From assembly GCF_964355755.1 (NCBI RefSeq), contig NC_092672.1:248001-312000 (forward strand): 64,000 nucleotides of DNA, given 5' to 3'. Shown here in pieces: positions 20,783-50,592 of the stretch (its first letter is position 1; each line of letters starts with the position of its first letter). The notes under the pieces were generated by a model. The model saw only the letters and a list, made by a program, of their open reading frames with translations, was not told the origin of the DNA and did no database searches. This stretch comes from Antedon mediterranea (lineage: Eukaryota; Echinodermata; Crinoidea; Comatulida; Antedonidae). Made by a program: the position numbers and the translations under genes.

Positions 20783-20945
20783 GGTGCAACTCCGTAATTA
20801 TCGGCACCAACTGTTCCAGCAACATGTGTCCCGTGTGACCAAAGCAATCCTCACCCTTAACATGAAAATGCAAAATATAACATGTATCTCGAATATATCA
20901 TCCATCACAATCGATTATAAGAAAGAACAAAATTCGTACCTCACC

Positions 20946-21071
20946 AGTTTTTACTTCGTGCCAGTTCACAGCTCTTCCACCAAATTCAACATGATCAGTT
21001 CGGATACCAGTTTTTACTTCGTGCCAGTTCACAGCTCTGCCACCAAGTTCAACATGATTAGTTCGGATACC
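20946..21071 (-). repeat. 63-bp in-frame duplication within the catalytic-Asp exon
   Basis: Two units 63 bp apart encode 21 residues each, starting TGIRTNHVELGGRAVNW and TGIRTDHVEFGGRAVNW. The duplication keeps the frame but inserts an extra 21 residues directly after the catalytic Asp, where the fold would not be expected to tolerate it. Confidence 0.9.
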
Positions 21072-22079
21072 AGTATCTACAACATACACGATTACGCCAC
21101 TTCCATTCCCTTTATAATAAGTTCAATGTTTTTAATATTAATATAATGGTAATGACCGATTATGTAGCTAGGCCTACCAGGCCATATACTTACCCGTCGA
21201 TAGATATGTATTGTCGAGTGGTAGCTCACGCTGATCGATACGGTCTAAACCCCATACATTCGTGCTCGTTTGCATTCCAATTTATTATTTCTTGTTCTAC
21301 GTATCTCACATCATTCATTTGGCTAACAAAAACAAATAACAAAAGTTATTATTCTTGGCACACGCCCCTTAAACAGTTTTTGTTGGTATTATGATCTTAA
21401 TGCACCGACAAAATGGTTATGAATGATCCTCTATGATTTAATGTAATACCGATTTAATTTCAAGACATTTTATTGGTCCACTTTAAAATGGATATTTGTT
21501 TTGTTTGGCATAATTAAGGCGATAAAACAACAAAGTAAAATACAAAAGAAAATGTTAAAATAAAATACAAAAAAAAATAAGGTTTTGTGATGAAACGACA
21601 ACATTTTTTACATATTAGCATAATTATACAAAACCATACGTTATACCGTAACAAGCAAAGACATTCCTTGATTTAATTACCATATTCAACTGTTCACCAT
21701 CAAGATCGCACAAGACCGCTGGTATTCCGTCTTTTGTGTGTAGTGCTTTCTTAGGAGTCATCTTTTTACCGTCAGATGTCTTCATCTCACTCATTTTTCT
21801 CATAACATCTGTTAGATCGACATCATCCTAAAAGAAAGTTGGTTTTGTAAATTGTGTTATGTATCACATACTTTAAAAAGCTACTAAATACAGTACTACC
21901 ATGGAGGTATTTTTTATACCTCCATGGTACTACTAAATTTAACAAGTGCGGATCTCTAACAAAATGGTTACTTACGTCACATACTACGACAAACGTTCGG
22001 GATTCACGTGAATTTGGAATAGCATTGCCGTAAACATAAAGTTTCGGACATTTCAGTTTTGGTTCATGCCCCGACAAAA

Positions 22080-22799: not shown

Positions 22800-23958
22800 T
22801 AAATGTCTTTATTGGGCTGTATTTTCACGCTGCTGCTCTAGCCCGCTTAATCAGAAGCTAAAGCAAGCAGCAGTTATAGTTATAGGACGGCAGTTTTGCG
22901 AAAATGGAAACTCCACTATAATTTATTGATTCCAGCTGCTACAGTAGACCCAAAAAAACGTCTGGGAAAAGAGTCTATTAGGACATATGTCATGCTATAA
23001 TTACAAATCCCAAAGCATTTCTGGTATATTCACTGTCAGATATTCATTGAATTATTATCGAAACAGTCCATTAAAGTTTGTGTTTGTAATAGGATACTTC
23101 ACACTTGAAATATCTAGGGCGATGAAGTGACCCCCAGACTTGACCTAAAAGTGACAGAAATTGAGTATTCACTTCTGTAACCAAAAAATAATATTTATTC
23201 ACATACAAATAAAAAGAGAAAAGAAACCCAAAAACCATTGTCTGACAGACAATTTAAGTATTTGTTGCTTTTTAAATTACTTTTTTCAGGTAAAATAACT
23301 ATTATGACTGTGACAACAAAATGATGACACATTCAAAAACATTTGAAATAAAAAATATTTTTCAATAAGCGAGCAGCGTTTTTTGTAAGAAATATTTCTT
23401 GTTTTACTCATGCATTGTCAAACTTTTCTGGATTTTTTTTCCGGTAAAAAAATATCGTGTGCTATAACATGGGCAGTACGGAAAATTCATGATTGTCTAA
23501 ATTTTGTGTACATCGCCCTCATGAGGTATCAATAATTTTTTTTTTTCGTCATGCAATTTATGTTTACCCATAGAGGGCGTATTACTTTGTTTACTTTTTG
23601 TTAGTTCACGTTGTTTGTGTTGTTTTAAAATAAATTCGAAGATTTAATCTAATCTGATTAGGCCTAGGCTGCGCTAGTAGTATCAGGCGTAGCCTAGTAG
23701 GATCGTAGGATCACTCTTGTGTTACTAAGTATATGAAGTTTGTGGGAAAAGAAAAAAGTAATAAGGTCTGATCATCAGGCCAGCCGAGTATACGATATAG
23801 TATAGACTTTAGATTAGTTTTTAGGCTACAACAGAGAGAGGAGAGAGCAGCAGCAGTAGAGAGAGTGTTTGGGTCGAGCGCTTAACTAGCTAGGCCTACT
23901 AAACTAGGCCTACTAGAGGTTAGTAGAGGCTTTATTTAAAGAATGTGAATTAAATAAT
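22800..23958. other. Spacer and 5' flank of the FAAP20-like gene
   Basis: AT-rich with no gene. The last 330 bases are richer in GC and contain repeated AGGCCTA motifs and GAGAGAG runs. This part probably includes the 5' UTR or promoter of the gene starting at 23959. Confidence 0.4.
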
Positions 23959-25708
23959 ATGATGCAAGAAGAAAAGGAATGGACACCACTCCCAAGGCCG
24001 TGTTTGGTGTGTCTCACTAAGAAAAAAGTTGATCATAGTAATGATGACACTAAGCCAAGTAGGCCTACTATGACACTGACAGATGCTGAATTTATTTCTA
24101 ACCAAACGGACATAATTAACACATTTACAGACAATTTGGTAAACATTAACAAGGACAACTCTGATCAATTGGAACAATGTGGTGATATGACTACTGTGAA
24201 CATTATGAATGTTGGCAAAACACAAAAATGTTTGTCTTTAAAACGTGCAGCAAACTTTACAAATCAAAAGCATCATTCATCTGCAAAGAATGTTTGTAAC
24301 AAAAAAACCCTGAATATGAACTCAAAAGTCAAACAGCAAGACTTGCTGCTGCATCAGCAAACATTTAAGCCTGTACTAACAGATCAAGTCAAGACTCAAT
24401 CAAAATGGCAGCCAACTTTATTCGGTCAATCATCTATTGCTAAATTTGATACCAAAAAACAGAAAGAATTAGCAATTCAATCTACAAGTAAGCAGGCATC
24501 AAACCTGTCATTATTTCAGAAAAGATGTTCAGCGAACAAAATAGTTGAACAGTCCAAAACTGATGATGGTTTAAAGTTATGTCCACTTTGTCAAATGGAA
24601 TTCCTAATAAGGTAAGACTAAGTTAAATGTACAAACATTTATCCATATTTCAGATTTTATTAGTCTCTAGCTTACATAAATATACTGTTATGTTTTGTAT
24701 GTCAGAAATTAGAATTTGAATGCAAGTTTGACTAAAGATAATATTTTAATATTATAATAAACTTCTCCACCATGGGAACTCAAGGTACTTATTATGTGTT
24801 CATTTACTTGTTGTATAAGTAATTAGGCCTACTAGGAAATCATCGATAATTTCTTTAAAGTTAATTTTAATTTATGGATATAAATTTGACATAAAGCGGA
24901 TTAGACATTTTGCTATTTGTGTTTTAATGGTCATGTAAATCATTAGCACATTGCTAAGCAACAGATGTTAAAACACCTCATTTGTTGTGAAATTGATCAC
25001 TTCATTCACTTGTTGGATCTATGACGACAGTCCTTAAGAGCTTTTTTGATTCTAAAAAGTATTAAATTACAAAGTTCTCACTAGAAAGTGGCATATTTAA
25101 ATTTCCTATCAATCAATGATAAGATGGTTTGTCAAAACGATTTAAATGTTCTGACTTAACGGGTAGCAAAATGACCAATTGCTATTCATTGAACTACTCA
25201 ATTATATTTAGTATAAGATATCACAAAAACAATTAACAAAAACGGAATGTATTTATTTCGCTTTACATCAACTTATTACAAGCAAGAGTTGAGAATTTTG
25301 AAATCTTTGATTGAATACTTTGTCAAATTTCTGTAATTCCAACAAATAATTCACATGCCCCATTTTTTAAGTTTAACATTACTGACTACGTGAGTTACTG
25401 TGACCTCTGTCACCTATTGTTTTTCCTAATCTATCAGTTTGACTGTTCTTAATTGTTTGGTTGGTGAAATCAATAAATGAAATGAATTCAAAAGAAAGAA
25501 AATGAACATTAAAGCTCTTAAATTATTACAGTTTACTGAATGCAAAAATGAGGAGAGGGACAAGAGGTTGAAATAATTTCATGTAAATGACTATATTATA
25601 TAAATAACATTTACTCAATGTACTCATTATTACAGTTGGACACAGATAGAAAAAGATGGTCATATAGCTTCATGTCTATCAGAAACAAGTGATGATGTCA
25701 TCTGGTAA
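23959..25708 (+). CDS. FAAP20: FAAP20-like protein with a C-terminal UBZ4 zinc finger (2 exons)
   Basis: The exons are 23959-24611 and 25636-25708 (TAA), joined in phase 2, giving about 241 residues. The N-terminus has EWTPLPRPCL, which resembles the WTPFPP segment of vertebrate FAAP20. The middle is long, polar, Lys/Gln-rich and probably disordered. The C-terminus is one zinc finger of the form C-x2-C-x15-H-x3-C (CPLCQMEF ... DGHIASCL), ending ETSDDVIW-stop. Human FAAP20, a ubiquitin-binding partner of FANCA in the Fanconi anaemia core complex, ends with the same arrangement: UBZ4, an acidic linker and Trp as the very last residue. The Asp two residues before the zinc-binding His and the terminal Trp, both important for ubiquitin binding in that family, are kept. 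The second-exon split within the finger is clear. Other UBZ4 proteins do not end this way, so orthology is likely. Confidence 0.78.
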
Positions 25709-26416
25709 CAGTCAAAGAAACAAGTAATGATGTCATCTGGTAACAGTCAAAGAAAGAGGTAATGATATCATCCAGTAACAGTCATATTAGAAACAAGTGA
25801 TGATGTCATCCAGTAACAGTCATATTAGAAACAAGTGATGATGTCATCCAGTAACAGTCACAGAAACAAGTAATGATGTCATCCAGTAACAGTCAAATAA
25901 ACAAGTGATGATGTCATCCAGTAACAGTCACAGAAACAAGTAATGATGTCATCCAGTAACAGTCAAAGAAACAAGTAATGATGTCATCTGGTAACACTCA
26001 CAGAAACAAGTAATGATGTCATCCAGTAACATTCACAGAAACAAGTAATGATGTCATCTGGTAACAGTCAAAGAAACAAGTAATGATGTCATCTGGTAAC
26101 AGTCACAGAAACAAGTAATGATGTCATCTGGTAACACTCACAGAAACAAGTAATGATGTCATCCAGTAACATTCACAGAAACAAGTAATGATGTCATCTG
26201 GTAACAGTCAAAGAAACAAGTAATGATGTCATCTGGTAACAGTCACAGAAACAAGTAATGATGTCATCTGGTAACAGTCAAATAAACAAGTGATGATGTC
26301 ATCTGGTAACAGTAAAAAAAAACAGGCGATGATGTCATCCAGTAACAGTCATATTAGAAACAGATGATGATGTCATCCAGTAACAGTCAAAGAAACAAGT
26401 GATGATGTCATTTTGG
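25680..26416 (+). repeat. ~35-bp minisatellite made from the last codons of the FAAP20-like gene (about 21 copies)
   Basis: The unit AGAAACAAGTGATGATGTCA plus TCTGGTAACAGTC starts inside the last exon (codons for ETSDDVIW and the TAA) and repeats to 26416. There are about 21 occurrences of GATGTCAT (one as GATATCAT). Spacing varies between about 34 and 45 bp, and units alternate between TCTGG and TCCAG variants. The first copy keeps the stop, so the array forms the 3' UTR. Confidence 0.93.
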
Positions 26417-28063
26417 TAAAAGATAATGATAGGGTTAGGTGCAGAGTTCTGTCGGTGTACCTACCTAGTGTGAAAGTGATTAATAATGAGCAACATTTGT
26501 ATGCAAACGAGATAAATGTCTATTTGTGTTCACTGAATGATATTTTAGAGAGCAGTTGGCATCTGAACTGTGTATCGCTATACAACTCTGAACTCTACAA
26601 TCATTTTCAATATAAGGTCATTAGCTTCTGAACTGATAATTCTTTCGTTTTACATATCGCAACTAATTGCATTAAACTCAGTTGTTTATAATTCGCCGGT
26701 AATGTAATACTGTTCTCCTAAGTCTGTTAAAATGCTAGAATTAGAGGCAATTTCTTTACTTTTTTGTGCTTATTACGTTCATCGGCGAGATGTAATAAAG
26801 TGAAGATTATGGCATCAATTCTATCAATTGCATGTTTGCATTCTTTGAAGTGCTTTTATAGTTAATAATTCCTTTAAAAACAGGATTTTATAATAATTTT
26901 CGATAGATCGCTAATTTCATTCGTCTGATTTTTAACATCTGAAATTTCAATCGTTAACCCGCAGCATTGCAGTTTATTTATTGACATAATGATATCTCGG
27001 TAAGATAAGTAGCCTGCATCATCTTATGTGCTAAAAATCATCTGAGAAGGAAGGACGGAAGGAAAGGCAATACTTAAAATAAAACCACTACCATTACGTC
27101 AGCATGTTTGTATTTGTAGGCCTATATCGATCCAGCATCTTCCTTCAGTTTGTTATTGCTATTTTATGGCGAATCGTGATGAGATATGACAACAGTTAAT
27201 TAAAAAATATAAAAAATAAATATTGAAAAATGTATTCGCAAAGTGGTGATTTTTTACACAGAGATTTTAATTTGTTTCTTCTTATAGTGTCTGTATTATT
27301 GTATTGAAGTGGTCCTTATTATGATACTACAAATCAATTAAGCACACGGCATTGACATACGTGACATTTATTACTTATATCGTAACTATTTCCGTCAGTT
27401 TCTGTCTTGTGCGTTAAAACCAATTTGGGTAATTGCATGAATAGAGCCGGCGTCAGCCTCTTCAATCCTTTATGTACAATGAACTCAAATGTTTTCGTTT
27501 TTTACGCCATTTCACAACAACATCATATATACAAACAAAATATCATAACGTTTTTTTTATTGTTTATTATTTTAGATATTCTCTTAAGTATTATTATTTT
27601 TATAGGTACCGTATATGAGATAATTTAATTCGCTGAGTTTTTTCTTTCAATGTATTGACAAATTGAAACCAAACTCATGAAAACAAATTTTGCACAATAA
27701 GAAATTAAATAATCCCTTGTTATGAGGACGATTTAAAATAAAAACATTGTTGTAAATTCATTCAGTAAATTTAATCATGAGAGAAAAGATTTTCCAGGAT
27801 TAATATTGATGGAAGTTTCGTAAATTAATTTAGCAACAACAGACTTATTTTAAGTTTAATCAATCTACCAAATTCTAATCAAGTAAAAACAAGTATGGTG
27901 ATAAAGTAAGTAAAATGCTTCGTACTGCTTATTATGAAAACAATTACTTTATTCATCACATCATGACGTCAATGTATAGTTTGTAAAGTGTTATAAACAT
28001 AATGATAAAAAGAGGCACCGGGAAAGAAAAGTTTTTGTATCGATGAGACCCCAGATTAAATTA
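26417..28063. other. Non-coding spacer
   Basis: AT-rich sequence with no gene or clear repeat. An open frame at 26413-26631 has no recognisable domain and starts in the minisatellite. Confidence 0.5.
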
Positions 28064-29141: not shown

Positions 29142-30300
29142 ATTACGACAAGCTGTTGCAGTAGATGAAACTGCTTGTGATGCGACTTACAGTCAAGGTT
29201 TAGCTGCGACAGATACTTCTGCTGCTGCAGAAGATAAAACTGCTCGTGATACAACGTAGCAAGGTTCACTTACGACAGACACTGCTGGTGCAGAAGATGA
29301 AGCTACTTGTGATACAGCTTTACATGGTTCAATTACAACAGATACTGCTGCTTCAGAAGATAAAGCTGCTTCTGATACAACAACAAGGTTCAATTACGAC
29401 AGATGCTGATTGCAGTAGATGAAACTGCTTGTTATACATCTTAACATCAGTTACGACAGATACTGTTGTTACAAGCGACGAAGCTGCGTCTGATACAAAT
29501 TAACAAGGTTCAGTTACGGCAGATGCTGGTTTAGTGGTTAATACTGCTTGTGATACAATTTAGCAAGGTTCAGTAATACAACAAATAGTGTTGTAGTAGA
29601 AGAAACTGCTTCTGATACAACCAAGTTCAGTTACGACAGATAATGCTGTGTTACAGAAGACGAAACTGCTTGTGATACAACTTAGCAAGGTTCCGTTACG
29701 ACAAATGCTGCTATTGCAGCGCAGAAGATGAAACTGCTTGTGATACAACTTGACACGCGATTCAGATACGACAGATACTGCTGTTGCAGAAGATAAAACT
29801 GCTTGTGATACAACTTAGCACGGTTTAGTTACGAAAAATGCAGCTGTTGCAGAATGTTAAAATGCTTGTGATACAACTAAACTGCTTGTAATACAACTTG
29901 GCACGCAATTCAGATACGACAGATACTGTTGTTGCAGTTAAACTACTTGTTATAAAACTTAGCACGGTTCAGATACGACAGATGTTGCCGTTGCAGTAGA
30001 TGAAACTGCTTGTGATACGACTTTCAAATTGTTGTGAACCCTTTTTCTCGATCCTTTCACCGTAACATCGCATTCACAAGGGTTTAAGTACCAGCAGAAG
30101 GCATCTCTGTATGTGCTGTTGGTGAGGGTGTAAATAATCGGATTGATTGCAGTAGAAGAAACTGCTTGTGATTACAACTTTGCACGCATTTCAGATACGA
30201 CAGATACTGTTGTTGCAGTTAACCTGCTTGTTATACAACTTAGCATTGTTCAGATACGACAGATGCTGCCGTTGCAGTAGATGAAACTGCTTGTGATACG
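29142..30300 (-). repeat. Array of degenerate ~60-bp units expanded from the GPCR C-terminal tail
   Basis: Units contain GAAACTGCTTGTGATACAAC and ACGACAGATACTGCTGTTGC and recur more than a dozen times. Read on the minus strand, they encode variants of VVSQAVSSTATAASVVSEPC, the tail of the GPCR. Some units lack the stop and stay open, for example 29393-29193. At 29977-30152 a 281-bp-offset copy also includes the end of TM7 (INPIIYTLTN) and the NPC tail region, so larger segments were duplicated too. Confidence 0.88.
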
Positions 30301-31367
30301 ACTTTCAAATTGTTGTCAACTCTTTTTCTCGATCCTTTCACCGAAACATCGCACCCACACGGGTTGAAGTACCAGCAGAAGGCATCTCTGTATGTTTTGT
30401 TGGTGAGGGTGTAAATAATCGGATTGATGGCAGCGTTCATGAACATGGGTGTGCGAGTTAAATTTGCAACGTTAGTAAATTTATACTGGTCAAAATCGTT
30501 ATAGTACTGGATAAAAAGATTGAGCAATCTGTAAGGCAGGAAACACATGGCATATATAGAAACTGTGACTGTCACTGTTCTAAATATCTTCCGCTCAGCT
30601 TTAATGCGGTTTTCGATATTCTTTGATTCGTTGAAAGGAGATTTGCGAAGTTCCATGACCATTAGTACGTACATTGGAACCATACCGACAATAATCAACA
30701 ACCCAACGCCAATATCAGCTACATACGTATGTATTACAATCTTACAAGCTAAATCATTCTCAGGGCCACAGTAATGACACCAAGTCGTCTCACTGGGTAG
30801 ACCGCGGTATCCATCAGGCCAAGGGAAAGTGTGTGTTTGAGTAGAAACCGAAAAAAGGAGACGAGACTGGTAGGCAAAGACAGTGAGCCATACAGCGGTG
30901 CTTATTTTGAAGGCGCGGCTCCGCGTGCCATTTTCGCGGTACTTGAATGGCCTACATATGGCTAAGTAGCGTTCTGCTGACACGCAGAGAATCATGACAT
31001 TAGAAATTTGGAAACTTGAATCAATGAGAAACACTATAATCTTGCAAACGTAAGGCGAGAAGTTGCCCTGATGAAAACTATCGTGCAGGTCATTTTCTGC
31101 ATATGATCTAAAAAACGGAATTGGTGCCACCGCTAAGAACACGCTATCTGAAAATGCCAAGCTAACTAAGTAGACATTAAGTGGTGTCTTCATCTGTGGA
31201 ACGCGCAGTAGCACCACGACTGTTGCACTATTACCGATGAGTCCAACGATGATAATGATTGGCCAGATAACCGGAATGATCACATGATCCATTGCTGGAT
31301 ACAAAAACAGGTCAACATACTCATCAAGGTCGTATTCAGTGGTGGTGGTGTTGTTGGATACGTCCAT
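30240..31367 (-). CDS. Class A (rhodopsin-family) G-protein-coupled receptor, probably peptide-activated
   Basis: A single coding exon encodes 375 residues from the Met at 31367. I prefer it over the upstream Met at 31454 because an acceptor-like GGAATCTTTCAG lies between them. The N-terminus is short and acidic with a possible N-glycosylation site (NNT). Seven hydrophobic segments follow, with family landmarks: GLIGNS in TM1, LAFSD in TM2, Cys in YVCKI, and ERYLAICRPF (DRY variant ERY) after TM3. FLPYRLLN is in TM6 and NAAINPIIY (NPxxY) in TM7. NPCGCDV may be a palmitoylation site after helix 8. Extracellular loop 2 is Cys-rich (CHYCGPENDLAC). The overall pattern resembles thyrotropin-releasing hormone, neuromedin U and related peptide receptors; the ligand cannot be named. 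The Ser/Thr/Ala tail is repeat-derived and merges into the downstream array. Confidence 0.9.
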   Translation of the reverse strand: MDVSNNTTTTEYDLDEYVDLFLYPAMDHVIIPVIWPIIIIVGLIGNSATVVVLLRVPQMKTPLNVYLVSLAFSDSVFLAVAPIPFFRSYAENDLHDSFHQGNFSPYVCKIIVFLIDSSFQISNVMILCVSAERYLAICRPFKYRENGTRSRAFKISTAVWLTVFAYQSRLLFSVSTQTHTFPWPDGYRGLPSETTWCHYCGPENDLACKIVIHTYVADIGVGLLIIVGMVPMYVLMVMELRKSPFNESKNIENRIKAERKIFRTVTVTVSIYAMCFLPYRLLNLFIQYYNDFDQYKFTNVANLTRTPMFMNAAINPIIYTLTNKTYRDAFCWYFNPCGCDVSVKGSRKRVDNNLKVVSQAVSSTATAASVVSEQC

Positions 31368-33920: not shown

Positions 33921-34370
33921 GATCTATCATACAGGGGTAGAGGTCTATCATACAGGGTAGAGGTCTATCATACAGGGGTAGAGGTCTATCATACAGGGGT
34001 AGAGGTCTATCATACAGGGGTAGAGGTCTATCATACAGGGGTAGAGGTCTATCATACAGGGGTAGAGGTCTATCATACAGGGGTAGAGGTCTATCATACA
34101 GGGGTAGGGGTCTATCATACAGGGGTAGGGGTCTATCATACAGGGGTAGAGGTCTATCATACAGGGGTAGGGGTCTATCATACAGGGGTAGGGGTATATC
34201 ATACAGGGGTAGGGGTCTATCATACAGGGGTAGAGGTCTATCATACAGGGGTAGAGGTCTATCATACAGGGGTAGAGGTCTATCATACAGGGGCAGAGGT
34301 CTATCATACAGGGGTAGAGGTCTATCATACAGGGGTAGAGGTCTATCATACAGGGGTAGAGGTCTATCAT
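33921..34370. repeat. 21-bp minisatellite, about 21 copies
   Basis: The unit TCTATCATACAGGGGTAGAG + G repeats with AGGGG and rare other variants. A remaining fragment of the same array continues at about 34546-34580, after an inserted element. Open frames on both strands are by-products of the 21-bp period. Confidence 0.95.
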
Positions 34371-34545
34371 CAGGGAACATTTTCGCCAGTGTAGCGTAGC
34401 AAAAAGCTATACAAAACAACCTTATTGCTACACATTTTGAAAATTGTGTAGCAAAAAATACAATACAAAACTATGTTTCTGGACTTAAAAATCAGTTTGA
34501 TTAGCAATATTGCTAAACAAAATTTTTAAATGAAAATTTTCCCTG
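34371..34545. mobile_element. 175-bp TIR element inserted into the 21-bp array
   Basis: The ends CAGGGAACATTTTC and GAAAATTTTCCCTG are inverted. The five bases ATCAT flank it on both sides (34366-34370 and 34546-34550), as a target-site duplication would. The interior has several inverted AGTGTAGC/GCTACAC-like words and no coding. It is clean evidence of insertion after the array formed. Confidence 0.82.
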
Positions 34546-42317: not shown

Positions 42318-45300
42318 ATGTCTCGATATGGGAATACTTACTCTATTTGGATATTTATATACCTTGGCTGTATAATATTTCATGTATCAAGTCCAAATAA
42401 AGGTAATTTTTTGTTTTTATTTATAGGCTCAGCCTCAGTCAGGACTGGAGGAGGAGGGAGGGGGGAGTGAGTAACGTCACCACTACCAGCAGCATCTACC
42501 CACCACACTGCACCTTAGTTCCACTATCCGCCAGCCAGAACAAGTTAAGCCAGCCCTCAATAGATCCACAAGAATACAGCCTAGAGATTGTTTTGTATTT
42601 GTTTTTTAGACCACCATGTCACATGGATGGTATGTGTAGAGTAGAGTTTCTCCAATTAATTGAATTGTCATGCTTTGGGTCTGCTCAATGGTGCAGGAGT
42701 TGACATCTTTACGACCTTCACAATCCAAAATAAATAAATCTAGTTGGGTTTTTGTCACGTTTCATTCTCCCAATAATATGTCAAGCTGTTTCCTGTTTAT
42801 GATATGTTTTCTACACAAATTTGTATAATTGGTACAAATTTCAAAATGCATTTTTTTTAGCTGCAGTTTTCTGCCTCTTACTTTTACTTGACACCAAAAA
42901 AAAAGACCCCCTTTCTCTTCGCAACAGTGAATACAGATGATGAGGAGCAGGCCTACCTTGCTTGTAAATTATGAATTTAGGTGTTGAAATCACACAACAT
43001 CACACAACACAAACAACTAAAATTTGTTTTATTGTAATAATTTTTGGAAATCTCAATTATCAAAATATAAATTAAAATTTAATTTTGTTTATGTTTGCAG
43101 TGACATTGTATGACAGCAATTCTTTTGCTGGTCTAAACTGGGACATCTTTCCACCGTCGGATGATATAGCAACATATAAAGGGGTAAATATTGTCAGCGA
43201 TTTTTGTTGTTTTAATTGTGTGTTAATCGTTTCTCAGTTTGTTTGTTTTTTTTAGCAGACAATGAATAAGTAAGTAGTATATCATAATTATTGCTAAATT
43301 GTGGATGAATAAAATGAATGATGATGAATAAAAAAAAGTATTCTTCATATTTACAAAATCAAGGTTTTCCTTCCTTTGATTTTATGTGATGACATAAAAA
43401 AAGCTTTTTCAGTGATTACTATTTTTATGGTGTCCTTGATATAATGTGGGCATGATTTCTACCAGATTTACCTTGCAATATTTAAGAAATTCCAAGACAA
43501 GTTTATGAAAAGTCAGTGATCAATCATTATATTAAGTACAAACAATTAACCTGTCAAAATAACCTCTTTTGTTGAGAATATGATTTATTTACTTCACTGT
43601 AGGGGAGCCACAAATGTACTCTGGTGATTAGGAAAAAAATAGTTGTTGTAATTAAAAATTTGAACCTTAGTATTCTCTAGGTCATTGCATTTATCTTAAA
43701 TATAGGTCACTCAGTTTGTCCACTTTGGGTCATTTCCTTTGGGTCAGTAACACAGTGGTCATTCCACTTATGTTGGTTGATGTTTTGATTTCACACATTT
43801 TTGGACATAAATCAATCATTAAGGTGTTTAATATCCCCTAAGGAATGTGAACCTACTGTAGTCCCAGGTTGTAAGTAAATAAACAAATCTCAAATTATCA
43901 GGATACCTGTACTGTACAAAATACAATTGGTCCAATGTGGTGGGAATTTAGAAATAGAAACACCATCCCTGCCTCACTGCCTGCTACCATCCAATGGTAC
44001 ATAACCTCTAGTGGGTGACGGTATTAATAGTAGAAAATAAATCCAAATCCACCTTAAAATGATTTTATATTACCAGATGGTTCCATACAAGATGCTAGTT
44101 GATAGTGATACCAATTTGCAATGGGCTACTGTCTATATATCAGGTTTTTCCATACAAGATGCTAGCTGATACCAATTTGCAAGGGGCCATGTGTTTTAAA
44201 CAGGAAACATTAGAGAAATGTCTTTAGTCCATTAGCTCATAAATCTTAGAATGTATCCTTTACATACACTCTACAGTATAATAAATCAACCAGTTTGAAC
44301 ATGCAAACAAGGTGTTTTGCCTGTACACCTCCAGACTATACAAGCATTCAAGATTAAGTTTCTTCTATAGGATTATACTAATCCCAGGCAACACCTATCA
44401 AAGGTTACTTGTATAATCTCCTAAATAAGCATACATGTTTGGGTACTTATCCAAGGTCTTTTAAAATCCACTAATTAGTTTTAACTAAATGGAGATATAT
44501 GGTATTGATATATGGTATTGATATATGGTATTGATATATGGTATTGATATATGGTATTGATATATGGTATTGGATCTTTATTACTTGTAGTGCAACAACT
44601 GTTTCTAAAGATGACTACAATACTGTATGATATTGTAATTAAATGTTCTCCTTGATAAACATTCACTAGCAAGTACACATTCATTATATGATAATTACAC
44701 AGTCCTTCAAGTCCTAATTTATTTATATAACTATTTATACTTCAATGTTTAGGGGCTGAACTTGATTAGTTTTAACTATTTTTTAGCCCTTCCCTTGATA
44801 TAATTATTATTATTTGTATTACAATGTTTATAATTTATATTTATGGGTAAATAAAGAAAGAAAGAAAGAAAGAAAGATGACTACAATACTGTATGATATT
44901 GTAATTAAATGTTCTCCTTGATAAACATTCACTAGCAAGTACACATTCATTATATGATAATTACACAGTCCTTCAAGATGGATGTTTAATCATTACAGCA
45001 GGGGTATTTTAAATTTTTTTACAGTAGTAAGTCATTAACTAAACAGAAAACAAAATGATCATATTTTGAAATCCTTTTACCTATTTCTAAATATGTTATG
45101 ATACAATTAATTATCACTCTGACTGATGGAATGTTTTTAGATCATTTACACAATTTTGTTGTTAATATGTTGTATTCCATAATGATTTAAACTACTAGTG
45201 TTAGCCTTTAAACTACTAGTGTTAGCCTTTAAACTACTAGTGTTAGCCTTTAAACTACTAGTGTTAGCCTTTAAACTACTAGTGTTAGCCTTTAAACTAC

Positions 45301-48300
45301 TAGTGTTAGCCTTTAAACTACTAGTGTTAGCCTTTAAACTACTAGTGTTAGCCTTTAAACTACTAGTGTTAGCCTTTAAACTACTAGTGTTAGCCTTTAA
45401 ACTACTAGTGTTAGCCTTTAAACTACTAGTGTTAGCCTTTAAACTACTAGTGTTAGCCTTTAAACTACTAGTGTTAGCCTTTAAACTACTAGTGTTAGCC
45501 TTTAAACTACTAGTGTTAGCCTTTAAACTACTAGTGTTAGCCTTTAAACTACTAGTGTTAGCCTTTAAACTACTGTAGCCAACAAAAAATGGCAAACCTG
45601 CATATCTGTGGAAACCATTTGCTCACAAATTTCACATGTTTACTACACTCATCAATGTCAGTGTAATTTATTAGATTAAAGTAAATTACAATGTATGGCC
45701 TATAAAACCAGCAGAAGCTACCATTTATAATTATTTAATGATTATTGGGTCACATACTTAGAAAAGACCCATGTACACCAGCCAACACTGCAATAAGCTA
45801 TTATTTCAGCAACACTACCAATATAAAATTTCGAGGAAGACCGAGAACCACCCTACCAATAACTCTCAGCAATGACCTACTCACCCTTTATAAGCATAAT
45901 ACAGACATTAAGTATCCCGGACAATTGAAAACCAAGAAAGACATGAAACAATTTAAAGAACTAGCAAATGAAAGATCAGACTGGAAGAAGCTAGTAAAAG
46001 AGATTTACGGAGCAGCCCAAGCGGAAATGTCGGCAGACTTTTCAGCGGAAAGGCAGTAATAATATATATATAATGATTATACAGGATTCTTCTAATTGCA
46101 CTGACATTGAAGACTGGGTGTTGACTTCAATATTGCATTCTATACACTCTTACTAATTAATATTCAAGGGTTCTTTAATTATATAATGATAATTATGTCC
46201 AGTATCCTCAATAAATCTTGGGTTAATGGTATAATAAATTGGTGCACTATGTTACTGCAGATAGATCTTATGATAATAAATTGGATTTCATAATCTGAAA
46301 GGCCTGTTATCATTAATATTTACAGTAGTAAAGCCTCGTCTATAGAAGAATACCGTACTGTATGTCGTTGTCGGGGTGGATCCAGAATTTTTCAAAATAG
46401 TGAGGCTCGGAAACAAAATGAGGGTTGATATAATATATTCTACATTTATTATACAGTATTTAATTTAACATACTTATGTTCATTCTTTGTACTTTGGGCT
46501 AACCTCTTTGAAACTGAATTAATATAATTGTAAGTTGCTGTATTAATATATTATACAGAATTAAATTACAATACTGTACTTGATCTCATTTTATTTTTAT
46601 TAAATATATGTATGTGGTGGAAATATACTTCTTTTGCCAAGTAAATCAAGTAAAAATCATTTATTAAATACATGTTTTTTATATCACCGTGCCTTTAGTT
46701 TTGTTTTTCATAACTTACGGTAGCCTATACGTACATGCTTTACTTTGTAGGTTGATACTGTTGGAGGTGATACTTGTCATTTTCAAGAATTGGATTAATA
46801 TTGATAAATTTAAAGAGGTTATTGATTCTTGAGTCATTTACGACTTACGTTGTTAAATACTCCATCTACTACAATTCCACTGCTATCTAACTGACTTTCT
46901 TGAACATGCATAGAATGAGTTCCTCAAGAACTCAACCAGTATCATCCTAATTTTAAGGCCCACATCAAGTTCTAGTACTAGTAGATACAGTATACTGTAA
47001 CAACGTCAACATTCCTACACAACAAGATCAATGATGGCCATATTATTTCAATTTTACTACTCATTACCCCCACTTGAAATTCAACATGAATTTCATAATG
47101 ACTTTTGATTTTTTCTACATTTAATTATGAGATAGCTAGCTTCGATTCTACGTATTTGTTGCACTTGAGTGCATTCAACATTGCATAGCAGACTGTAACT
47201 TGATGTGAGAGGGTCACAAAACTCATTTACATAACGTTAGATTCAATCATATTATTTCATTGCCTTTTAAAATATTAATTGGATTTTCCACTTCACTGAA
47301 AAAAAATTGCTTATTCGGGTTCTAAGAATTTTTGAAATATAATTATAACTAATTGAAGGGTTGCTTTAATAGTCACTTAATGAAACTTAATCGTAACCAA
47401 TTTATCATACATGATTAAAACAATGACTTTTAAGTAATTCTATGTCTGTATTCAATACGATTTATATAAATAAGGAAAGAGTGAATTTCACTCCTGTTTC
47501 CTGTAGAAGGTATTGCTGACACTGTCTTTACTCTATCTTTGTGAATACTTCAATTCCAACATCCTGTTTAGTACAGTAGGTCTACTACTGTACTAGAAGT
47601 GTTTATTAGTACAATGATCATAATGTTTACTGTGCAGTTTTGTTTTATTTTTTTTTTCAAATCTAAACCTGGTTTTATCTCCTACTGTATACTTATTACC
47701 TAAGAGTTTATCCTGTGAAATGTACAATGGAGGACTCCATAGAAAGTGTGGGTAATCACCATGCAAGATAATCCATACATTGTGTAATGACTAGCTTATC
47801 CTATTCATGATCACACGTCCAAATTAATTATTCAACCTCTATATAAGTAGTGATCCTCTAATAAATACATGTTCTACTAAATAGTAATTATTGGCATTTG
47901 GGTGTTTTATTTGTTGTTTCACCTTCACAGTATCATCCAATTCTACTCTCTTAGAGTGGTTCCATTTAAGCTCGCTCTTAGAGTGGTTCCATTTAAGCTT
48001 ATTAACGAATATAGGGTTGCTGTAGTCTAAAGCTCTGTCTACACTATCAAACTTTATGTGAAAACAAAATCTGATGTGCCCATATATGGACATGATGATG
48101 TCATATCACTACCATATTTAAGCATCATTACCATATTTGGGCACATCACACTTTTTGTCACAAAACGTTTGATAGTGTAGACAGAGCTTAATACTGTTTA
48201 GTCTATCTTTCCATTTCCATTATGAATTCAGTGTTTGTATGCTTAGTGTTAAGTAATACTAATTTATAATTTATTATGAATTCATTATGAATTCAGTGTT

Positions 48301-49577: not shown

Positions 49578-49719
49578 GTAAGACTTTAACATTGCACTGT
49601 TTATTTTTACCTTCGTACTGTATTTGTGAAACCGCATTTAATAGCATATCCTGCTTAATAGAACTTATTTATAATATTAATTGGATCCTAGGAACTTTTT
49701 CTAAAACATTTTTCTGCTC

Positions 49720-50592
49720 ATTGGCTCAGGGAGTTGTAAAATAAGATTATCTTACAACTCCCTGATTGGCTTGTCTGCTCATTGGCTCAGGGAGTTGTAA
49801 AATAAGATTATCTTACAACTCTCTGATTGGCTTGTCTGCTCATTGGCTCAGGGAGTTGTAAAATAAGATTATCTTACAACTCCCTGATTGGCTTGTCTGC
49901 TCATTGGCTCAGGGAGTTGTAAAATAAGATTATCTTACAACTCCCTGATTGGCTCAGGGAGTTGTAAAATAAGATTATCTTACAACTCCCTGATTGGCTC
50001 AGGGAGTTGTAAAATAAGATTATCTTACAACTCTCTGATTGGCTCAGGGAGTTGTAAAATAAGATTATCTTACAACTCCCTGATTGGCTCAGGGAGTTGT
50101 AAAATAAGATTATCTTACAACTCCCTGATTGGCTCAGGGAGTTGTAAAATAAGATTATCTTACAACTCCCTGATTGGCTCAGGGAGTTGTAAAATAAGAT
50201 TATCTTACAACTCCCTGATTGGCTCAGGGAGTTGTAAAATAAGATTATCTTACAACTCCCTGATTGGCTTGTCTGCTCATTGGCTCAGGGAGTTGTAAAA
50301 TAAGATTATCTTACAACTCTCTGATTGGCTCAGGGAGTTGTAAAATAAGATTATCTTACAACTCCCTGATTGGCTCAGGGAGTTGTAAAATAAGATTATC
50401 TTACAACTCCCTGATTGGCTCAGGGAGTTGTAAAATAAGATTATCTTACAACTCCCTGATTGGCTTGTCTGCTCATTGGCTCAGGGAGTTGTAAAATAAG
50501 ATTATCTTACAACTCCCTGATTGGCTTGTCTGCTCATTGGCTCAGGGAGTTGTAAAATAAGATTATCTTACAACTCCCTGATTGGCTTGTCT
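49720..50592. repeat. Tandem array of 17 hairpin-forming units (45/61 bp)
   Basis: Every unit holds CAGGGAGTTGTAA, a short AT-rich loop (AATAAGATTATC) and the inverse TTACAACTCCCTG. Units come in a 45-bp form and a 61-bp form that adds TTGTCTGCTCATTGG. I count 17 copies of TTGTAAAATAAG. The array begins about 140 bases after the Eph exon 3 donor. Confidence 0.95.

Follow-up and report, generated by a model that had tools for sequence, protein, structure and literature searches.

A minisatellite spanning the stop codon of a FAAP20-like gene in the crinoid Antedon mediterranea

Results

A predicted FAAP20-like gene runs into a tandem array

We analysed a 64,000-nucleotide stretch of the genome (hereafter the window) and found on its forward strand a predicted two-exon gene whose last codons are continuous with a tandem repeat. 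The features of the locus are as follows.

23959-24611, + strand: predicted exon 1, codons 1-217 plus bases 1 and 2 of codon 218 (gene model)
24612-25635, + strand: predicted intron (GT...AG); it interrupts the UBZ finger, with the Cys pair encoded before it and the His/Cys pair after it
25636-25708, + strand: predicted last coding exon to the TAA, SWTQIEKDGHIASCLSETSDDVIW-stop, with the S codon straddling the splice (gene model, Pfam, PDB)
25681-26419, + strand: minisatellite of 21 copies of a 35-bp unit; the coding part is copy 1 as far as 25708, and the remainder lies 3' of the stop
25682-25708, + strand: copy 1, ETSDDVIW-stop, the sole copy with the exact tail
25896-25901, + strand: AATAAA in copy 7, the canonical polyadenylation hexamer nearest the stop on its 3' side
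25994-26273, + strand: a 140-bp block present twice without a difference, as copies 10-13 and as copies 14-17
26281-26286, + strand: AATAAA in copy 18
26794-26799, + strand: nearest AATAAA 3' of the array; ATTAAA is found before it, at 26671

An in-frame stop lies at 23914, and exon 1 was taken to start at the next ATG; it ends at a GTAAGA donor, while exon 2 starts at 25636, preceded by TTATTACAG. The exons join in frame to give a predicted protein of 241 residues with the C-terminus CPLCQMEFLISWTQIEKDGHIASCLSETSDDVIW. Residues 205-239 match the UBZ_FAAP20 family (Pfam PF15750) across all 35 of its 35 profile positions (5.8e-13; 48.8 bits vs a cut-off of 25), and the PDB entry 2muq is matched at E 1.1e-9 with the tail as query and at 6.7e-8 with the whole protein. 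Alignment of the predicted protein with the FAAP20 chains in the PDB (2muq, 2mur and 3wwq) is collinear through the terminal Trp, CLSETSDDVIW-stop here corresponding to CLAESTEDVTW-stop there. The zinc ligands of the C-x2-C...H-x3-C finger are present (CPLC...HIASC aligned with CPMC...HLAQC), as are the tail Asp and terminal Trp (DDVIW-stop vs EDVTW), and the second Asp and the Trp align with D177 and W180 of the human protein. These two human residues are called invariant in PMC4267625, according to which ubiquitin binding by the W180A mutant is not detectable and mitomycin sensitivity is not rescued. In combining a CCHC finger with a C-terminal D-V-x-W, the predicted protein resembles FAAP20 as represented in those PDB entries and in the human study. 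It differs from known FAAP20 in its N-terminal ~200 residues, which have no detected match: outside the UBZ neither a further Pfam family above its threshold nor, with E up to 1, a PDB chain was found, and searches of Pfam and the PDB detected no FANCA-binding part in this region, where it may be too diverged or too short. Judged from its sequence, the predicted gene is FAAP20-like, a putative orthologue of the DNA-repair gene FAAP20.

A PF15750 search for a paralogue returned this locus (the exon 2 part) and one further match, on C5, at 26.5 bits against the cut-off of 25. The latter (L131; G000:C5:3637400-3638600, minus strand) was considered as an array-free FAAP20 reference and rejected, since its CPMC...HIDNC finger, TCPMCEKVFGTGTSNADINKHIDNCLT, is followed by a stop and the Trp tail is absent; the match represents either a different UBZ-like protein or the edge of an exon and cannot serve as a reference. 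A short repeated motif, DTPYSHDTPYGH, lies downstream of that stop in the same frame.

Anatomy of the array

Tandem Repeats Finder (TRF) reports a single array at 25681-26419 with period 35, 20.8 copies, 89% matches and a score of 1015, which makes it a minisatellite by the usual definition of many head-to-tail units of ~10-100 bp. A sequence-only reading of the same DNA had placed it at 25660-26416, right to within ~20 bases, and had correctly described a ~35-bp unit that begins in the last FAAP20-like exon (25636-25708) and holds ETSDDVIW and the stop. It had about 21 copies following, whereas 21 is the total, with 20 of them after copy 1. When the array is cut at its common core, 16 of the 20 spacings between copies are 35 bp, three are 38 bp and one is 36 bp. 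Copy 1 reads GAA ACA AGT GAT GAT GTC ATC TGG TAA, that is, ETSDDVIW-stop.

The longest exact repeat within the array is 170 bp (25967 vs 26107). Together with the two identical 140-bp blocks, this implies that the array changed recently, the blocks apparently marking a late amplification, and its length is likely to vary among individuals. In the last copy TGGTAA runs into other sequence and the CAGTCA spacer is missing, so that the segment first duplicated can be delimited only approximately. The four bases 5' of AGAAAC are TATC in copy 1, resembling the TATT of copies 4, 5 and 20; C occupies the last of these four places in 8 of the 21 copies, after a different base context. The first unit was perhaps 38 bp and later lost three bases, which is suggestive only, the stretch being too short for proof. 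What we say of the age, polymorphism and growth direction of the array is based on one assembly.

Searched by BLAST against the 354-Mb assembly, a 221-base query from the exon end had 17 matches, the query itself among them, none of which lay outside this locus. Later array copies align with the exon end, the best of them at E 4.1e-11; their likeness to copy 1 is, on these alignments, not a matter of chance. The exact 18-base core ACAAGTRATGATGTCATC, searched in the unmasked sequence of the same 354-Mb assembly, gave 17 forward matches, all within the array and including copy 1, with zero reverse matches and zero for a reversed control pattern. A dispersed satellite or a mobile element was considered as the source of the array and rejected, as the exact core occurs nowhere else in the unmasked sequence and the BLAST matches are confined to this locus.

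Only copy 1 has the exact coding tail

The sequence-only reading held that every copy preserves the tail. The copies say otherwise. Trp-stop (TGG-TAA) is found in 10 of the 21 (copies 1, 2, 9, 11, 12, 13, 15, 16, 17 and 18) and Gln-stop (CAG-TAA) in another 10 (copies 3-8, 10, 14, 19 and 20), while copy 21 carries one extra T that leaves its frame without a stop. The first acidic residue is Asn instead of Asp in 13/21 copies, the second Asp is kept in all 21, and the exact ETSDDVIW-stop occurs only in copy 1. Selection on a protein is expected to leave chiefly third-position changes. Among the 28 codon-aligned columns, nine vary when copy 21 is set aside, made up of five first-position, three second-position and one third-position column; with the frame-shifted copy included there are 12 (six, four and two, respectively). 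By their changes, copies 2-21 evolve without visible constraint at the protein level, and copy 1 is the predicted functional coding end.

We also simulated 520 contractions by joining copy 1 to each of the 20 later copies at 26 homologous positions, with equal weight for every junction. Trp was retained in 263/520 and the wild-type tail in 183/520, and all 26 joins to copy 21 lost the stop and ran on into a longer frame. The expectation that deletion between copies would always leave an intact C-terminus was therefore not borne out.

The mRNA end

The sequence-only reading took the array to form the 3' UTR. Because AATAAA lies inside copies 7 and 18, transcripts could end within the array, which may then belong wholly, partly or not at all to the mature 3' UTR. 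A role as structured RNA was considered and set aside: the segment from exon 2 through the array folds slightly worse than its shuffles (z +2.26), 19 of 20 of which fold at least as well. The motif TGATGTCA, which we take to resemble a CREB/ATF site, has 22 occurrences on the array's strand of the window, 20 of them within the array (25681-26419).

Other arrays in the window and at gene ends elsewhere

Several further repeats are present in the window. Two 21-bp arrays, at 33923-34375 (21.7 copies, 97% matches) and 45186-45574 (18.5 copies, 100% matches), have long open frames on both strands, which are likely an artefact of a unit length divisible by three. At 49713-50592, units of 45 bp and 61 bp with inverted-repeat ends (CAGGGAGTTGTAA ... 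TTACAACTCCCTG) form a tandem array of palindromes. At 20943-21074 (minus strand, frame 20898-21122), an exon presumably of a subtilisin-type protease contains an in-frame 63-bp duplication, with GGRAVNWHEVKTG twice.

The convergent neighbour of the FAAP20-like gene is a rhodopsin-type GPCR on the minus strand (7tm_1, 2e-38), and a second array, at 29150-30433, is rooted in its stop-codon end. The final codons of this GPCR and its stop, whose last base is 30240, are repeated in ~63-bp units down to ~29150, with TGCTAA retained in some units and not in others. A further GPCR elsewhere (L081; G000:C3:34648717-34649647) has an 89-bp unit in 5.0 copies across its TGA stop; one base present in copies 1 and 2 is missing from copies 3-5, which are thus not maintained as coding sequence. 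At both GPCR ends, as at the FAAP20-like gene, the array begins near the stop, includes it and continues beyond it in later copies. The units differ from the 35-bp unit in length (63 bp in the window GPCR, 89 bp in L081) and are unrelated to it in sequence, and the window GPCR has an additional feature of its own, a 281-bp duplication carrying part of TM7.

We surveyed 129 gene ends elsewhere in the genome, counting an array as clear at period >= 10, copies >= 3 and score >= 150. One clear stop-spanning array was found (L081) and one doubtful (L115, an overlap of a few bases), distributed as 0/29 and 1/60 in two GPCR sets and 1/40 in a trypsin set; two weaker spanning arrays were left uncounted (L007, 11 bp, score 56; L112, 18 bp, score 76). 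The 29 are 30 GPCR loci minus L030, whose match holds 20 stops and no usable frame, and include one match (L027) that ends short of the profile end. The 60 were hand-chosen from the other 118 GPCR matches listed, without an internal stop and reaching profile position 258-260 of 260, and the 40 from the 149 trypsin matches listed, reaching position 220 of 220, 34 of them without an internal stop. Some surveyed loci lie in gene clusters and are non-independent, and some predicted stops, above all in the trypsin set, may be intron read-through.

Clear arrays cover 2.3%, 3.0% and 1.7% of bases in the sets of 29, 60 and 40, respectively, the first figure having been computed on all 30 GPCR loci with L030 included. 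From this coverage, random placement would put ~3 of 129 stops in an array, against one or two observed. At these 129 chosen ends of two gene families there is thus no excess of stop-spanning arrays over array coverage, a comparison that is rough because the counted bases include coding exons, which lowers the coverage. Coverage by clear arrays is higher in the window, at 10.3% of bases. That a window of 64 kb contains two stop-spanning arrays may exceed chance expectation.

Discussion

Origin of the array

We consider it very probable, and the best explanation, that a protein-silent tandem duplication across the stop codon gave rise, by amplification, to a neutral minisatellite. The tail, shared as it is with human FAAP20, predates the repeats, which argues, in agreement with the sequence-only reading, that the array grew from the coding end of the gene; the collinear alignment with the PDB chains through the terminal Trp points the same way. 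The initial event would have been a tandem duplication of the last codons and stop of the FAAP20 orthologue together with about six bases of 3' UTR. With translation terminating in copy 1, the duplication would not alter the protein and would escape selection, and this silence would suffice for an array to arise and lengthen at a gene end that is conserved. Slippage or unequal exchange would then have multiplied the unit to 21 copies, with the identity of the 140-bp blocks suggesting recent amplification at that scale. The outcome would be a neutral 3'-end minisatellite, probably length-variable between individuals, and possibly a mild mutational hazard, in that the coding end could acquire codons for Gln or Asn by conversion or contraction.

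The other explanations make predictions that the copies and the assembly speak to. Were copies retained as spare tails, from which any deletion would recover an intact FAAP20 C-terminus, selection would leave the second Asp (aligned with human D177) intact in 21/21 copies, as is seen, and Trp-stop does persist in 10/21; but an exact tail in a single copy, ten Gln-stop copies, a stopless copy 21, the loss of Trp in all but 263 of the 520 simulated contractions and of the wild-type tail in all but 183, and the placing of eight of the nine variable columns (copy 21 aside) at first or second codon positions make this very unlikely. It is improbable, to a lesser degree, that the array is regulatory, its copy number setting mRNA stability, the choice of poly(A) site or transcription. 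The candidate AATAAA hexamers in copies 7 and 18 would suit such a role, as would the concentration of TGATGTCA in the array (20 of the 22 in the window on that strand), yet repetition of this core is a plain consequence of repeating the codons, and the folding result (z +2.26; 19/20 shuffles at least as good) gives no extra RNA structure. Finally, a satellite or mobile-element repeat might have come first and the stop of the gene moved into it later. Minisatellites are dense in the window (10.3% of bases), which such an order of events would fit, but the alignment of the tail with FAAP20 extends to the final residue and the exact core is found nowhere else in the unmasked assembly, and we find this scarcely credible. 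Growth from the coding end by silent duplication is the account that we prefer, and the array otherwise looks ordinary, a by-product of a minisatellite-rich genome.

Comparison with known arrays and implications

A literature search covering minisatellites at stop codons and those with polyadenylation signals returned no clear precedent, although one may still exist in print. The nearest known system in our comparison is the human SLC6A3 (DAT1) gene, whose 3' end carries a 40-bp VNTR as described in PMC4472402 and PMC8502797. Both arrays have a tandem unit of roughly this length directly at the 3' end of a gene. The array described here differs in that copy 1 holds the last codons and the stop, from which its origin in coding sequence can be read, and in that it is known from one genome sequence.

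A bolder proposal is that the ubiquitin-binding tail is hypermutable, contraction or conversion between copy 1 and the Gln-stop copies repeatedly making Trp-less FAAP20 alleles that would stand as variants in interstrand-crosslink repair, with stop-spanning minisatellites as a recurrent protein-silent route to unstable gene ends. We think this quite unlikely. If internal copies do recombine with copy 1, a residue on which ubiquitin binding depends in human FAAP20 would adjoin a reservoir of changed versions of itself. More generally, conserved-looking codons in a repeat need not signal selection. The locus offers a readable example of a minisatellite apparently born of coding sequence with the protein unharmed, the duplication being silent in that it includes the stop.
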